A DNA stretch of 64,000 nt from Ceratobasidium sp. AG-K. Taxonomy: Eukaryota; Basidiomycota; Agaricomycetes; Cantharellales; Ceratobasidiaceae. The position numbers and the translations under genes were made by a program. The DNA lies in contig JAWNGF010000001.1 of the NCBI GenBank assembly GCA_037039685.1, positions 6,262,001 to 6,326,000 on the forward strand. Direction: 5' to 3'. Positions 8,282-25,247 of the stretch are shown here, in pieces. How positions within the stretch are numbered: position 1 is the first letter of the stretch; each line of letters starts with the position of its first letter. The notes beneath the pieces are model-generated. The model was not told the DNA's origin and ran no database searches. It saw nothing but the letters and a program-made list of their open reading frames with translations.

Positions 8282-8582
8282 GGAGATGTAGACCTGACAT
8301 GGTTAAATGATGTCAGAGTGGACCCTTATCCGAGGGAACTACAATAGGCGCCCCCCTTGATCCTCAGCTTCCATAGTGGCCGACTGCAAAAACATAAATT
8401 GATTCAATAAAGACAATTACTTAGAGTAATAAGAGCAGATTTGCGCGTTTAGATAGTTTCTCGGCCCTCTTCAACTATGCGTTTATGCTTCAACGACTTT
8501 ACTGTACACGCGTTTCCGATTCCATTCATGGCTCTTACGGCCACGTGACATCGTGGCTTCTGCTGCTCGACCTCTTTCAGGA

Positions 8583-9697
8583 ATGGCGCGCGAACATAGG
8601 ACTCCTCTAAAGCGTGTATCTCATGGATCACTCTCTGCGCTTGCTCGATCTACTGGAACAACTAATGGTCCAACGGGTCTTGATTTCTTGGAACCAGCAT
8701 TTGCTGAGTTTGCGGACGAAGCTGCAGCAATGCATCGGAATATCGAGCGAATGGGAGATCTGTACGAAACTCTAGAAACATTTAACGAAAGCTTTTGCAG
8801 CTTTCTCTACGCATTAAACATGAATGCCTATACTGTCGAGTGGCCCCAGGTACGGGTTCCCTCAACCTGTCCATTTCTGAATTCACCCATATGTATTTGG
8901 CGAAAGGCACCCCGACCCGACATTTCTTTCAAATTGGGAGAAGAGAGAGCAGGTATGTCGGAATCTCCAGGTGTATACCGTAATATAACCTATTTCTACT
9001 CTCTCAGAACAGGCAGCAGCCCGAGCCGCGGCCCAACGCACGCCTGCTCCACCCTCGCCGCCTCAACAATCGACTCAACCAGATCCCCGTGAACCCACTC
9101 CTGGACTGGAGTTGGAGGACAACCAGGCGGATGCTTCCGTTCGTCCTGCGGGGCACGTGGCTTCTGCGTCAGTTTCGAAGGGCAAGCAAGGCACGAAGCC
9201 AAAGATGTCGGTCAAGGAGAAGAAAGAGAGGGCTGTAAGTATGCAAGAAAACGAGATGGCACTATTTCTAATTCACTTGCAGCTTGTAATCGAGAAGATC
9301 GTCAACCTACTACCGTTGGAGTACCGAGGATCTGAGCCCGTAAGTCATAGTAGTGCCGTATATGCCGTTCTGTAGGTTTATAACCTATCGCAGCGGCTGA
9401 GAGAAAACATGGAAGCCATTATTGATAAACTCATGGACGCACCTAAAGGCCTTCGTTGTAAGTCCGCCAGTCTTGATTTGGGACAATGCCTTCAATGTGT
9501 GCTGCAGTAACCGAATGCGTCAGTCCACCCGAGATTCCACAAGCACGTGCCAACAAGTGTCTTATTGCTCTCGTGAACCGCAAGTTTGTCAAAAAGACAT
9601 CTGCTGGGGTGAGTAGATGAGGCACGCTTGTTTAAAAACCCGTTAACATTGGAATATTTAGGGAGCAGCTTTATACACATGGGTGGGAGCCGCTTGA
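8583..9697 (+). CDS. DAM1: DASH/DAM1 complex subunit Dam1
   Basis: Seven exons: 8583-8849, 8907-8952, 9008-9234, 9283-9339, 9376-9457, 9508-9608, 9662-9697, all in frame. The conserved core is in exon 1: FADEAAAMHRNIERMGDLYETL followed by FNESFCSFLYALNMNAYTVEWPQ, running into APRPDISF of exon 2; this FNESF-SFLYGLNMNA-block is the signature of Dam1. The rest is a basic, Gln/Pro-rich tail and a helical segment LPLEYRGSEP. DASH forms rings on spindle microtubules and couples kinetochores to shrinking plus ends; Dam1 is the Ipl1/Aurora-regulated subunit that touches Ndc80. The ATG at 8583 was preferred because upstream in-frame starts are non-ATG. An alternative acceptor at 9393 would drop six residues. 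Last exon encodes only 11 residues and stop. Convergent with the lipase gene (172 bp). Confidence 0.88.
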
Positions 9698-16479: not shown

Positions 16480-17055
16480 CCCACGCCTCGCCAGCCTCAG
16501 CCGGACTTTCATCCCAATGGGCACACAGGGTATCATGCCAGTGGGCGTCTACCAGCCGCAGTCGCCCCTCGGCCATTCTCTCGCAGTCAGTGGCGAGTGC
16601 GTATAGTTTGATCCGTACTCTACGCATAGCCACACCCAGTCATGTACAGTCATTGGCAGAAACGATGCTGGATAAATGTGAATTTTAAACGTTTTCTACT
16701 CGAATGGTCGAGCAATCACTGGTAGGAATGTTCCCACCCAGCTGGTTGTGAGCTGCACAAAGTGAAATACGATAATACCCACCGCACAGGGAATGAACCA
16801 CTAGACCAATCTCAGTGCAGAGCTGGATAGGGATAATTTAGTGACATGTATGCGCTTCGCGGAGAAACAAAGTCAGCAACCACAACATGGGAAACGTGGA
16901 GGAACGGTTGGGGGTACGAGCCGATGATCACTTTGAGCCCGAAGCAATCCATATAGTTGTGACAAAGGTATTAGTCGGAGAAACTGTCGTCCGCATCCGG
17001 CAATACAACGGACCTGGAGATCCATGAAAACAACACTGGAAAGCGCGGGAGTAAG

Positions 17056-17063
17056 TATAAAAG
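17056..17063 (+). promoter_or_regulatory. TATA box of peptide gene 1
   Basis: TATAAAAG 84 bp before the ATG; the same octamer stands at nearly the same distance before peptide genes 2 and 3, within otherwise drifting sequence, which supports function. Confidence 0.7.
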
Positions 17064-17139
17064 CACGCCTCAAGTGCTCACCGGGCATTATCATTCCTCC
17101 ACCCCCACTTCTCTCGTAGACGCTCCATTTACAGCTATC

Positions 17140-17491
17140 ATGCGTTGTAGGTCGAGCTCTGGCCGGATGGTCTAGCCCGCACACTAACTCCATGCATTAG
17201 TTGCTCTTGTTGCCGCCGTTATTGCATTCGTTGGCTTTGCTGCCGCCGCCCCGAGTCCAGTAGAAGAGAAGCGCCTGGATTGCTACGGCAAGTGTAAGTT
17301 GGATGATCGCTGCTTGGGAATGATAATGGGAATAATTGACCCAATCCTTGGCTCTTACAGGCATGCAAGGATGCTACCCCCGGGTGCCCCTATCTGTAAG
17401 TTGAATGTGTTCCAAGCAACGCACTTGGTCACGGCTTGATAATACACCTACCTAGGCTCGATTCTATGCGGGAAGGAGTGCAAGTAATTAA
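17140..17491 (+). pseudogene. Six-cysteine secreted peptide, copy 1, frameshifted
   Basis: Same four-exon layout as copies 2 and 3: 17140-17146 (ATG CGT T, 7 nt), 17201-17293, 17361-17395, 17456 onward. Exon 2 encodes a signal peptide (FALVAAVIAFVGFAAA), the pro-segment APSPVEEKR with a dibasic KR site, then LDCYGKC. Exon 3 has one C fewer than copies 2 and 3 in the run after TGCTA (five C instead of six, near 17374), making it 35 rather than 36 nt. Reading therefore leaves the family frame, loses the last three cysteines and stops at 17489-17491; the ancestral stop sits at 17485-17487. Either a real inactivation, a truncated three-cysteine variant, or a homopolymer sequencing error. Confidence 0.75.
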
Positions 17492-18843
17492 CTTAGCCAC
17501 GTAGTCCTGGGGGAAGGAGGGTAATTCTAACCCTCCATACTTGTTAACACTTTGAATGAATTTTTTGCTTGAAATGGCCGGAGATTTGAATGGAGCGTCA
17601 AAGTGGCCGTCCTGGCATGGATTCAATCGCGTGCTCTATTTCCTCGGCTCAATCGGTTACTACGCATGGTACCGGTTTGACTACTTAGGATTTTCCACCT
17701 AAATTCGTGCGAGTAACTAAACTTTGGGGGTTACCTGCTACGCGTTGAGCTTGTTCTCTCCCTACCCATGCTACCCAACGTACATACATTTATTGAAATG
17801 TATGCGCAGATATGCCGCGAAGGGGACGGCAAGCGCCAATCCACTTGACTAGTATGGCGCTCTGGGCATACAACTTTAAGATGCTAGAATACTCTACCTT
17901 TTTTCTTCTCTATTGCAAAGCGGTCATTTTCTCACAGAAGCTGCTTGGAAACTCTCCTGTACTATACGGGAATGACCTTGGGACCCGGGTATAATATCTG
18001 GCTTTAGTATTACACGCACCCTTTCACCAATCCTCGCAATATGTACCTGTCAACCCATCCCTTTGAACGCCGTATGTATTCTGACCACCTTGCAGGGTCG
18101 AAATCAAGAAGTTGCTGTAGCCTTACGAGATAATCGGAGCACGGCAGCCAGCGTGACATTAATCCCGTTTGACTGGTATCTGGGCTACCAATAACCTACA
18201 CCTTACCAGCTCTCATGCACAAGAGTTTCATTGCTCTTATATTAGTTGTCATGTAATCATTCAGCTTGCATATAACAATTTTTAAATCCAGCCTCGACCG
18301 GAGTTCCGTCCCAATGGGGTATACGGAGTGCGATGGATGTTGACTCAATGTGGTCATTTTCTCGGCCATCGCCCGCAGCTGATGTCGCATACATGTAGAT
18401 TGATCCGAATTCTACGCATAGCCACTATCGGCAGTATGTAGCCATCAGTGTAATAAAGCCATGGTAAGTACTTTATTGAAAATTTCCTTCATGAACAGCA
18501 GAATACTGGTTAGTCAAATATCTATATAGTGTCGCGCTGCGGATTGCATCGAATGGTGCGTTATAATAGGCTCCGCAAGGCAAGCCGAATACACGGACGA
18601 ACTATTGGTATTATAAAAACCTCAATAGGTTCAATGTATGCGCCTGGCGGAGAAACACCATCAGGAGTCATGAGTTGCGGAATGTGAAAGATCAATCAGA
18701 TGTTACAAGCCGATGAGTGTTTTAGGCGTGGAGTAACCCGGGTAGCTGTCACGGTGTGCCGCTCGGGAAAACCATCTTTCCAGTCCGATTGTACGGCGAA
18801 CACCAAACTTTGTAAAGCCAGTTGTTGGGGGCAGAGAGGCGAG

Positions 18844-18851
18844 TATAAAAG
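18844..18851 (+). promoter_or_regulatory. TATA box of peptide gene 2
   Basis: TATAAAAG 81 bp before the ATG, conserved with the other two copies. Confidence 0.7.
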
Positions 18852-18924
18852 CATACTTTTGGGACTTATCGACCAGCACCATTCCTCCACTCTCACTCTT
18901 GAATACATCCAATTAAAAGCTACC

Positions 18925-19293
18925 ATGCGCTGTAGGTCGAGCTTCGTGTAAACGTCCTGGTGCCCGTATGCTAACCTTATGCTTCAGTTGCCCTTGTTGC
19001 TACCATTTTGGCGTTCGTTGGCTTTGCTGTCGCTGCCCCAAGCCCCGTAGAAGAGAAGCGTCTGGATTGCTATGGAAAGTGTACGTCTGAGCAGCCATCC
19101 ACTGAGAGTGGTGACATGAGGTGCTGATTACACCCAATCGTTGTAGGCATGCAAGGTTGCTACCCCCCGGGTGCTGGCGTTTGTAAGTCGTTTCCCTTTC
19201 AAATCGCGTGCTTGATCACGCTTGGCCTTCTGTTAACTACGTTTCTGACTCACCCACCTAGGCTCGATCTTGTGCGGAAAGCAGTGCAAATAA
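18925..19293 (+). CDS. Secreted six-cysteine peptide, copy 2 (intact)
   Basis: Exons 18925-18931, 18988-19080, 19147-19182, 19262-19293; all introns GT-AG (52-79 nt) and phases agree. The product is about 55 residues: signal peptide MRFALVATILAFVGFAVA, pro-segment APSPVEEKR ending in a Kex2-type KR, then a mature peptide of 28 residues that starts LDCYGKCMQGC, turns through YPPGAGV and ends CSILCGKQCK. Cysteine spacing is C-x3-C-x3-C-x7-C-x3-C-x3-C, i.e. two matching CX3CX3C arms around a Pro-Gly turn. Six cysteines, a signal peptide and a dibasic site imply secretion and disulfide folding; function (antimicrobial, signalling, host interaction) is unknown. I recognise no family. Too short for usual gene prediction, but three paralogous copies with conserved splice sites make it real. 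Confidence 0.85.
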
Positions 19294-19430
19294 TTAAATT
19301 GATAATACAGTTCTCGGGGGAAAGGGAGAGTGGTGTTGACCTTCAGTATATGACGTATTTGCGTACAGTACAAATAGATTTTGCTGCTTGAAACCGCTTA
19401 AGAGTTGAACAGAACGCCATTCCAACCGCC

Positions 19431-20494
19431 TTTGTTACGGATGCTGCCACAAGTCGATTCCACGTAAATCGCTCCACTTGGGTCTTCTGCAATAGATATC
19501 GCTGCCGACATAGTTTATTTTTGAGAAATTAGACATTAACTCACGCTGCCCTGAATCGTCTCTCTCCGAAAAGCACTCACTTGGGTTTTATTCATGATTT
19601 TTACTCGGGAATTCTTCAAAGGGCGTGAACGACGTTGCTGTAAGGTTCTCGTAACCGATGTATCTTAGTTAGCCTAAGCGACGTAGTCGCCGTTAATGAC
19701 AAGCCTTAACACAATCGAATTGGTAGTATAAACGAGAACAGGGGAATAGGCGGAAACCCGGGTCCTTTAAAGGACACCGGTCCGATACATGCGCATACAA
19801 GGAACCAAGTCGCCACGCCACGCGTGGCACCTCCACTCCATCTCGTAAGCGTTACCGTAACCGTTACAGTTGCATTGTCCCAGCGAAGAGGCTCATCAAA
19901 AAGTCGTGAAGACAATATAGAATGATATTCAGTCGATCCTTGCAGTGTCAGGAGGGATACAAGCGCTTTTTGCCGATGAGCCTCCTTGTCCCGACATGTA
20001 TTGAAATGACGAGAAAATTGGCTTCGACTCCAATGCCTTTGGCAGACCGAACATTATTTGACCTCAGTACCAGCTAGTTCAGTGTCTATGCACCCGTTGC
20101 GTCGTTCAGCCATTGTTTAGAACTGTCGTAGCAGATTGCCTGACGCGTAAATCGTAAAGGTGTCTGGACCGAGTATCAGGGGATAAGCGCCCGGGACAAT
20201 GCGTAGATCCGTTTAGGCCACTGTACCTGAACTTTAATGTCTTTTGAATACCACTGCGTGGTCATGGCATATTCATACATTTGGTACATCATGTTATATT
20301 ATCATTGGTCTTTGCGAACTACAATACCATGATCATGCACATTATGACGTATGACATCGCGTGGATGTGGCAAATCACAGCATTGCCACGGGAATTTCAT
20401 GCTCGATCACATGATAGCGCTTTCCCCCTTTTTTTTAGGATACTTCACATGATAGCGCACCACCTTGCAGATCAAATCTTTTTAACATAACTTT
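19431..20494. other. Spacer between peptide repeat units
   Basis: About 1 kb without a recognisable gene, present between units 2 and 3. Contains only short uninformative frames. Confidence 0.45.
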
Positions 20495-21539
20495 ATTTGA
20501 ATGTATGCGCAGATATAGTGTCAAAAAGGACGGCGAGTGCTACTCCACTTGAGCAATATAGCGCTCTGGGAGTACAACTTTAAGGTGCTAGAATAGTCTA
20601 CCTTGTTCTCTATCGCAAAAGTGGTCATCTTCTCACAGAAACCACATGAAAACTATCATGTACTACACAAGGATGACCTTGGCTACCTTGGTCTGATATT
20701 TGGCTTTAGTATCTGATTCTTGCAATATATGTTTGTCAAACCATACCTTTGGACACAGTATGTATTCCGATCACCGCGCAGAGTAGAACCAGGAAGTTAC
20801 CATAGCCGTGCGAAGTAATCAGGGCCCGGCAGCTAGTGGGAAAGCAACCCCATTTGCCTGTTACCTGGGCTGCCGAAAAATTACACCTTACTAGTTCCCA
20901 TGCACAAGGGTTTCATTGCTCTGATATATATTAGTTACCGTGTAAGCATTCAACTTGCCTATAGTAACTTTTAAATCCAGCCTTGACCGGAGTTCCATCC
21001 CAATGAGGTATACAGGACGCGATGGACGTTGACCCAACGTGGCTGTTCTCTTGGTCGTCACCCGCAGCTGATGCCGAATACATGTAGATTGATCCGAATT
21101 CTAAGCATAGCCATTAGCGGTAATGTGTTCTCATTAGCGTAATAAATCCTTGCTAAACACTATGTTGAACTTTACTTCACAAACGACAGAGTGCTGGCAA
21201 GGCGAATGTTCATACAGTGTCGCATCATGGATTGCATCAAATGGTGCGTCATAATAGGGACTGCAAGGCAAACCAGAAATGCAGGCAAACCAGTAGTGGC
21301 ATAAAACCTCAGCAGGTGCAATGTATGCAATGTATGCACCTTGCGGAGAAACACCATCAGGAGCCATGAGTTGCAGAACGAGAAGAATCAATTAGATGTT
21401 ACAAGCTGGTGAGTATTTTGGGTGTGGAGCAGCTTGTGTAGCTGTCACGAGTGCCTTGCTCGGAAAAACTGTCATTCAAGCCCAATTGCATGGCAGATAG
21501 CGAACCCCGTAAAGACCGCCATTGGGGCAGGGAGGTGAG

Positions 21540-21547
21540 TATAAAAG
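21540..21547 (+). promoter_or_regulatory. TATA box of peptide gene 3
   Basis: TATAAAAG 86 bp before the ATG, conserved with the other copies. Confidence 0.7.
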
Positions 21548-21625
21548 CACACTATTTTGGGACTTATCGACCAGCACCATTCACTCACTCCCACTCCTCT
21601 TGTAGATATCCAATTTACAGCTATC

Positions 21626-21993
21626 ATGCGTTGTAGGTTGAGCTTGGGTTGAACGGTCTGGCGCCCTTATGCTAACTATACGCTTTAGTTACCATTGTTG
21701 CTGCTGTTGTTGCGTTTGTTGGCTTTGCTGTCGCCTCCCCAAGTCCTGTAGAAGAGAAGCACCTGGATTGCTACAATAAGTGTGCGTTGAAGTGGCCATC
21801 CCCCGAGAGCGGTGATATGAGGCGCTGATTATCATCCAATCATTGTAGGTATGCAAGGTTGCTCTCCTCCAGGCTCTGGCACTTGTAAGTCTTGTTTAGT
21901 CCAAACAGCGTGCTTGGTCACGGCTTAGGCTTGTACTGACTATCTCTCCGACTCACCCTAGGCTCGATCATTTGTGGGAATAAGTGCAAATAA
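21626..21993 (+). CDS. Secreted six-cysteine peptide, copy 3 (intact, altered processing site)
   Basis: Exons 21626-21632, 21689-21781, 21849-21884, 21962-21993, same layout and phases as copy 2. Signal peptide MRFTIVAAVVAFVGFAVA, pro-segment SPSPVEEKH, then a mature region that starts LDCYNKCMQGC, turns through SPPGSGT and ends CSIICGNKCK. All six cysteines, the MQGC and CSI blocks and the PPG turn are kept while other positions vary (Y to S, G to N, A to S, V to T), a pattern suggesting selection on the scaffold with change on the surface. The KR of copies 1 and 2 is KH here, so Kex2 cleavage may be weaker or absent. Function unknown. Confidence 0.85.
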
Positions 21994-22135
21994 GTCGTTC
22001 GATCACAAAGTACTCGGGGGAAAGGAGGTCAATCCTAACCTTCACCTTCAGTACATGCCATACTTGTGTAGAATTTGAACGAGTTTTGCCTCTTAGAATC
22101 TCTGAAAATTCGAACAGTGCGCCATTCTAGCCGTG

Positions 22136-23410: not shown

Positions 23411-25247
23411 TTATGTCTGCATAAGTCTCTCGAGTGCCAAAGCTGCCTCGTGGATAGAGGTAGCTGGTAAGATTTCATGGGCTGCAGTCGCATTGGACTT
23501 TCCAAAGTGAACCACTAATCGTGCGAGGACCTCGCCCAGATCCACCAAGCAAGCCACCACGATTAGCCATATAATAATCCATCTAGTCCGAGCGTTGGTG
23601 TTAGCTTAATTCAATCGTTTCTCATAAAAATGCCTACGTGATACGCATCATAGCACCGTTGTTGAGGTGCTCGTGGATAATATCGAGCTAATGGAGCAAG
23701 TCAATGAGCTGTTGTCGACTAACGCCTAATTGGTTGCTTACCAAGTCGGATGCAACCCCGAGCCTCTCATTCAATACTTGCACTCGGGGTTCTATCTCAA
23801 AATATTCTCGAGTCGCATCATAGAGGCCTTTGAGGCTCGCCTCGGACCAGAACAGCTCCGGAGTATCGAGAACATTGGACACGAGATTCACGTCTCGCCT
23901 AAGCTTGAAAAGTCGACCAGTAAGTTTCAGTGCTTCCCCGCGGCGTAGTTTTAGTTCTCCCGAGTCAGCAAGCTGCTTTGGCAGCGCCGTCACAGAAGGG
24001 GCAGCCAAGACTATCTGAGCGATCGACTCGTAGTGGGCGAGAAGCGTCGACTGCGCCAGGGCATGAGCCAGGGATAATTTCAGAAGGTGCGAGGCAGATT
24101 TAAATGCTATGAAAGATTTAGTATCGGGCCTTATGGGTGTAAATGCAACAACTAACTGAAGAAGTCGTTGTATATCCGCGGTGAGGGCGCCATCGGGTCG
24201 TACTACAGACATCCTTAATTAGTTGGCTCCTTCACGAACAAATAGCCCAACATACTTCGTAGTGACATTCCTCCATTTCCCAATCGTCTTCCGACCTCCG
24301 GCCTTGCAAGATACCCGCGCTGTGCAAATCGTCCAAGATATCTCGCTCTTGACTCTCGTCCAAACCAAAGAACACAACGACACCTTGAAACGCATTTAAC
24401 AATCAAATTCCAGTAGAGTACAGCGTGCGTACCGTAATCAAAAAACACAACATCTGCGAGATTACTTTCGTCTTCAGTTGGCCACTGATCTGAGTTGTTT
24501 CGATTCAAGGGTTCAGCTTCCCGCCTATGGGGCTTTCGAGACTTGGGCGGAGATGATGCTATGTATCCTCCTCCTTCGAGCGAGTATGGATTACTAGGGG
24601 ATCCAGAAGCAAAGTAAGTTCCCTCGTAGCCGTATTCCTCTGCCTCAGACATTTTTGACAATATCGATTTGCCCCCCGGTGATTTGACCACAGGGGAGGA
24701 CCGGATATTAACATGTTGACCATAACCGGGAAGGAGCGGCAGGTGATACACCTGAAGCTAATTAGCGCTCGAAGTTGGAGATCGGATGAAGCAAACTCAC
24801 TGCATAAACAGCTTCATCGAATACTCGAGGAGCTACACCGTGTTCTCGCTTCAGAAAGGCAGTCAAGAGCTTCATGCGAAACGCCTGCGCGACGCAGTAT
24901 GCGGTGAGTCGTTTGTATCCCGCTCTCTGTCTCTGCTCCTTGCCCATCCGCTCGCCTTCACTTCTGTGTTCACCGGCCGGTGTGCTGGGGCCTTCTCCAT
25001 CGACTGGGGTTTCACGAGAACGAGGGAGTGGTTGTATTTGCACAGCCGATGGGAGAACAACGAGTTTCTGGGATGTTTTGGAGGTTCTTTGGGGTTTGGA
25101 TGCCGCCGCGAGAGGAAGAGAATTCGTTGCACGTCGGGGAGTATAGGCTCTGGTCTCTGGTATGGGAGGCAGGTGAGAAGCGCGCAGTCGGCCAAGCCCT
25201 GCCATCGGAGCAGAGCTTCGTCTGTGAGGAGAGGGCTTATTTGACAT
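23411..25247 (-). CDS. RMD1/RMND1-type DUF155 membrane protein
   Basis: Seven exons on the minus strand: 25247-24801, 24751-24433, 24383-24256, 24202-24157, 24106-23742, 23687-23638, 23582-23411. Every junction is GT-AG and restores conserved sequence: FFDYG|VVVFFGLDESQERDIL, EECHYE|YDPMAPSPRIYNDFF|TFKSASHLLKLSLAHALAQST, EYFEIEPRVQVLNERLGVASDL|LDIIHEHLNNGAMMRIT|WIIIWLIVV. These are the hallmarks of the DUF155 family (yeast Rmd1/Rmd8, S. pombe Sif2, human mitochondrial RMND1). The final exon holds one hydrophobic segment (WIIIWLIVVACLV), the usual C-terminal anchor. The N-terminal ~150 residues are Ser/Arg/Pro-rich and disordered. Rmd1-type proteins sit on microtubules or vacuole-related membranes, RMND1 in mitochondria; which applies here cannot be told. 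Divergent from LSM8. Confidence 0.92.

Follow-up and report, generated by a model that had tools for sequence, protein, structure and literature searches.

The window analysed here, a stretch of 64,000 nucleotides from the fungus Ceratobasidium sp. AG-K, carries a tandem array of very small genes for cysteine-rich peptides that are apparently secreted. The three copies are called c1, c2, and c3 (Table 1). For c2 and c3, introns were enumerated from the ATG sites, and four exons of 7, 93, 36, and 32 nt were predicted in each copy, separated by GT-AG introns of 56–79 nt. Introns 2 and 3 are in phase 1 and interrupt cysteine codons. The predicted products start with a hydrophobic N-terminus, followed by PSPVEEK(R/H) and a CX3CX3C-X7-CX3CX3C motif with PPG, and end in CK. 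The four-exon prepropeptide of secreted type proposed in an initial annotation of the window was thus recovered by splice enumeration for both copies. The first enumeration gave four other motif-bearing models for c2 and seven for c3, and under stricter donor and acceptor rules one other motif-bearing model each was found; we chose the model which keeps the signal sequence and has the best splice sites. In the mature part 21 of 28 residues are identical between c2 and c3, the cysteines and PPG being unchanged and their neighbours differing, just as the initial annotation had described.

The same annotation had counted c1 as a third gene. Its signal resembles that of c2 and c3 and its exon borders are homologous, but exon 3 comprises 35 nt compared with 36 nt in c2. 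This leads to a frameshift past the third cysteine, and cysteines 4–6 and PPG are not encoded. No model with the X7 motif was found for c1 in splice enumerations with up to three introns of about 35–130 nt. Possibly c1 is a pseudogene or an assembly error. As read from the sequence, two genes of the window are intact, and a third copy is broken or has been misassembled. The ATG codons are 1785 bp (c1 to c2) and 2701 bp (c2 to c3) apart.

Table 1. Gene copies and other features of the window, and further family members in the genome
Feature	Location	Strand	Remarks
c1	17140..17491	+	Exons 17140-17146, 17201-17293, 17361-17395, 17456-17491; borders homologous to c2; cysteines 1-3 only
c2	18925..19293	+	Exons 18925-18931, 18988-19080, 19147-19182, 19262-19293; splice enumeration; 55 aa
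c3	21626..21993	+	Exons 21626-21632, 21689-21781, 21849-21884, 21962-21993; splice enumeration; 55 aa
TATA-like box upstream of c1	17056..17062	+	Read from sequence
TATA-like box upstream of c2	18844..18850	+	Read from sequence
TATA-like box upstream of c3	21540..21546	+	Read from sequence
c2 tandem unit with upstream DNA	17824..19325	+	Outline, first to last matching direct repeat (D12 to D7)
c3 tandem unit with upstream DNA	20528..22025	+	Outline from direct-repeat families; about 2.7 kb from c2 unit
c4, c5	Contig C3 (locus L018)		Tandem pair; four exons; intact reading
c6	Contig C4 (locus L032)		Single copy; four exons; intact reading
c7	Contig C11 (locus L041)		One copy; lacks intron 3; X6; lacks PPG; intact reading
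Solo long terminal repeat (LTR)	19639-19868		Between c2 and c3; 230 bp; TG...CA ends; 5-bp target-site duplication
DASH complex subunit Dam1 (PF08653)	8457-9089	+	Flanking conserved gene
RMND1/DUF155 protein (PF02582)	23691-24218	-	Flanking conserved gene

The genome comprises 53.6 Mb in 17 contigs, the window being situated on contig C1. Protein queries of this genome led to four further intact copies, c4 to c7, on three other contigs, so that the family has at least seven copies, six of them intact, on four contigs. DNA queries (c2 and c5) matched only the respective tandem neighbours. For c5, c6, and c7 more than one splice model reached the motif, and the one with a signal sequence was chosen. 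The linker is X7 in five of the intact copies and X6 in c7. Because the family's exons measure only 7 to 102 nt and introns lie inside cysteine codons, such genes are invisible in six-frame lists of open reading frames (ORFs). As to the introns, intron 1 is exactly 56 nt long in five of the seven copies, and intron 2 is GC-AG in c5 (5081-5138 of L018) and in c6 on C4 and GT-AG in the other five.

Homologues outside this genome were sought in 5.77 billion proteins with a word-based search which needs shared 5-residue words and which distant relatives can escape. With c2 alone no match was obtained. An alignment query found a 54-residue protein of Ceratobasidium sp. AG-Ba (Ceratobasidiaceae, Cantharellales, Basidiomycota), designated P0001, with an E value of 3.2e-23 (one of 189 candidates; P0001 not in the query). 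In a second alignment search, whose query included P0001 itself, two proteins among 1241 candidates had E ≤10, both from Ceratobasidium: P0001 (2.8e-28) and P0002, 56 residues long, from Ceratobasidium sp. 428 (5.5e-21). Both have the X7 linker and PPG; they are known as proteins annotated by others, not as gene structures. Within the limited reach of this search no plant protein was among the matches.

We considered whether there are no genes here at all and the cysteine spacing arose by chance in spliced-together reading frames. The frameshift of c1 and the several splice models reaching the motif would agree with this, as would the fact that the models are predicted from sequence. Nevertheless, seven copies on four contigs with a matching exon layout and constrained codons speak against it, as do the two annotated homologues (the profile includes the first of them), and we judge it very improbable. 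Because the four-exon layout recurs at C3 and C4 and the spacing in two proteins of other fungi, the motif is, by the sequence evidence, not due to chance.

The initial annotation had suggested comparing nonsynonymous with synonymous substitution rates (dN/dS) across the paralogues. The Nei–Gojobori method was applied to the whole coding sequences of c2 to c6 (10 pairs), c7 being left out. In the eight pairs with finite dS, dN/dS was between 0.15 and 0.26; the figures are rough, since two pairs were saturated and six of the eight had dS above 1. Between c4 and c5 the introns are 56% identical (101 of 179 aligned positions) at a dN of 0.16; for c2 and c3 the contrast is weaker, with introns 77% identical (152 of 198) at a dN of again 0.16. 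The coding sequence of the family is constrained, and most changes in it are under constraint rather than accelerated. Invariant in the mature part of c2 to c6 and P0001 are the six cysteines, PPG, the L at position -2 relative to the first cysteine, the Y after that cysteine, SI after the fourth, and K after the sixth. In our view the family is best explained as secreted prepropeptides of a fungus that evolve by birth and death, a reading we favour by a little over an even chance.

Upstream DNA is also shared between the tandem copies; for example, 18238-18480 and 20927-21169 are 81% identical. In a comparison of the upstream regions of c2, c4, c5, c6, and c7, which omitted c1 and c3 as tandem kin of c2, no 8-mer was common to at least four of the five, and one 9-mer was present in three of the five compared with a shuffled mean of 0.07. 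The solo LTR between c2 and c3 has 38 or more matches elsewhere in the genome; five pairs of these are separated by about 8.63 kb, a spacing like that of full LTR retrotransposons. Rfam gave no matches in the window at gathering thresholds.

We propose that the product of the presumed transcript would enter the secretory pathway via its N-terminal signal, such signals having been judged by eye. A Kex2-type protease would then cleave after KR, at a site one or two residues ahead of the first cysteine, and release a peptide of 26–29 residues. KR is found between the pro-segment and the first cysteine in five of the six intact copies and in both outside homologues, and processing and secretion are highly probable. 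The R/H difference in PSPVEEK(R/H) is real: c3 has KH at 21757-21762, where all other intact copies and the homologues have KR. Without the dibasic KR, c3 may mature in another way or not at all.

A signal, a short pro-segment, a KR site, and a constrained mature part would also be expected of a signalling peptide, for instance in mating or development, that is processed by Kex2 like other fungal peptide precursors. We consider this unlikely: relatives were found in Ceratobasidium only, there are several paralogues with loop changes, and no receptor gene was seen among the ORFs scanned, which were part of all ORFs. Furthermore, basidiomycete lipopeptide pheromones end in CaaX, an end that the family peptides do not have. 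Near c6, a single match of exon length to a family of ABA-GPCR type was seen.

Another alternative is that the six cysteines bind Cu(I), making the product a secreted copper-handling peptide that would work together with a Ctr copper transporter encoded beside c5. A Ctr copper transporter gene (PF04145; about 5612-6090 of L018 on C3) begins about 340 bp past c5. A Ctr exon (E 2.8e-8) this close behind c5, and oriented like it, would suit copper handling, and P0001 is annotated as 'Ctr domain-containing protein'. However, P0001 has no Pfam match, PF04145 included. As the transporter sits downstream of c5, transfer of an annotation, plausibly from a fused gene model, accounts better for the name. 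No Ctr was found in the 20 window ORFs scanned (148 listed) or in the 10 of 25 scanned around c6, and the upstream comparison described above, in which the Ctr promoter was not included, gave no widely shared 8-mer. The oxidising secretory pathway normally turns cysteines into disulphides. CXC and CC pairs, which are typical of metallothioneins, are missing from the family peptides. Copper handling therefore seems improbable.

Concerning the fold, the released peptide would form, outside the cell, two short antiparallel helices around the PPG turn, with three disulphides (1-6, 2-5, 3-4) nested between them, as in the plant six-cysteine (6C) alpha-hairpinins and Ole e 6. In an ideal-helix model only 2 of 15 pairings put all three cysteine pairs in range, and of these two the antiparallel nested pairing leaves slack for the turn. 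For P0001, AlphaFold2 places helices at 23-35 and 43-52, with a mean pLDDT of only 64.5. Several points limit this reading: two of five other cysteine spacings tried also fit the ideal-helix model, a second AlphaFold2 model, made with two sequences, has only one helix in the peptide part (pLDDT 57.7), and structure prediction as a whole was weak and inconsistent. As other spacings fit as well, the geometry permits the hairpin without proving it. An alignment to 1SS3, the structure of Ole e 6, was weak, and Foldseek gave no significant match. The hairpin with three nested disulphides suggested in the initial annotation is accordingly kept as the likeliest fold, which geometry allows, while the predicted structures agree on it only in part; we regard such a three-disulphide hairpin of helices as likely.

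What the peptide does is most likely to be sought outside the cell: it would act on another organism, either antagonising microbes that compete with the fungus or working at the surface of plants. We give such a role, as antagonist or at the host interface, about an even chance. A membrane peptide driven purely by charge is disfavoured by the near-neutral charge of the mature peptides (-1 to +2). The tandem duplicates, one of them broken, are in keeping with an interaction gene but do not prove it.

Within this range the peptides could be directed at plants rather than microbes, the same scaffold serving as effector, elicitor, or inhibitor of host proteases. The duplication pattern would fit here as well. 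Both homologues come from Ceratobasidium, a genus with plant-associated isolates (one from an orchid root), some plant alpha-hairpinins inhibit trypsin, and RsSCR10 of Rhizoctonia solani acts on plants (PMC8421026). On the other hand, RsSCR10, with 10 cysteines in 84 residues by the same source, does not belong to the c1–c7 family, whole-gene averages bear no sign of positive selection, and basic residues occur in none of eight loops compared. We therefore think plant-directed peptides possible, though distinctly less probable than not. Only tentatively do we suggest that plant-associated fungi of the Ceratobasidiaceae evolved or acquired a six-cysteine helical hairpin of their own, a version of the plant one, which is used extracellularly at the plant or microbe interface.

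Should this be true, host and fungus would deploy the same miniature scaffold, and a motif class catalogued in plants would extend to fungi. If the likeness is convergent, the CX3CX3C-turn-CX3CX3C design would have been invented independently in two kingdoms. The peptide is defined and, with about 28 residues and probably three disulphides, easily synthesised for tests of structure and activity. Automated annotation may miss gene families of this kind: two homologues were found in the whole protein collection, one of them misleadingly named.

Described families were sought with Pfam. For the eight sequences scanned no family was over its cut-off, and five had no match whatever; for P0002 there were sub-threshold matches to DUF3551 and CsrA. 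NCBIfam gave no match in the four of the eight sequences scanned. Ole e 6 (PF09253, 1SS3) has two CX3CX3C arms and CY at the first cysteine like the fungal peptides, and in PDB sequence searches all six cysteines line up, at a level short of significance. It is described as two antiparallel helices with a short loop, a long unstructured tail, and a role that is not known (PMC8198727); 1SS3 is also listed in PMC3969231. It differs from the fungal peptides, whose linker is X7 or X6, in its X9 linker, its long C-terminal tail, and its plant origin. PF09253 scores were 11.5 and 13.4 bits for c3 and c5 against a cut-off of 27.7, with the other six sequences unmatched. Membership in the Ole e 6 family was rejected, as neither the cut-off nor the linker length is matched. 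Against the genome PF09253 gave no match over cut-off and one weak match on C3 near 3045353, where three forward frames look repetitive.

Also related in design are the classic four-cysteine alpha-hairpinins (EcAMP1 and kin), which share the CX3C arms and the principle of a helical hairpin and have four cysteines in CX3C-Xn-CX3C alone. RsSCR10 is likewise a small cysteine-rich secreted fungal protein, set apart by the length and cysteine number in its description (PMC8421026). In two venom papers the motif string is embedded in other cysteine patterns. In the openly licensed literature, covered mostly by titles and abstract openings, we did not meet a fungal KR-processed version of the motif.

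The motif itself is that of the plant 6C alpha-hairpinins. The initial annotation knew of no described family with the spacing, and this view has to be given up: PMC11591084 defines the motif as CX3CX3C-X4-20-CX3CX3C and reports 1069 members predicted from plant transcriptomes, 13 with X7 and 54 with X6, Nigellin-1.1 (PDB 2NB2) being a solved six-cysteine member. All six intact copies and both homologues, but not c1, have a motif within the published definition. 2NB2 was absent from the matches in the PDB sequence searches, and the likeness to Nigellin-1.1 is one of motif description. Like the plant members, the fungal peptides have a small precursor and an expected helix-loop-helix; they differ in their KR (Kex2-type) site, a loop that is mostly PPG, and a near-neutral charge. 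In sequence, the only likeness to a plant protein seen was the sub-threshold one to Ole e 6. Scaffold and motif have already been described in plants, and what appears to be new is their occurrence in a fungus.

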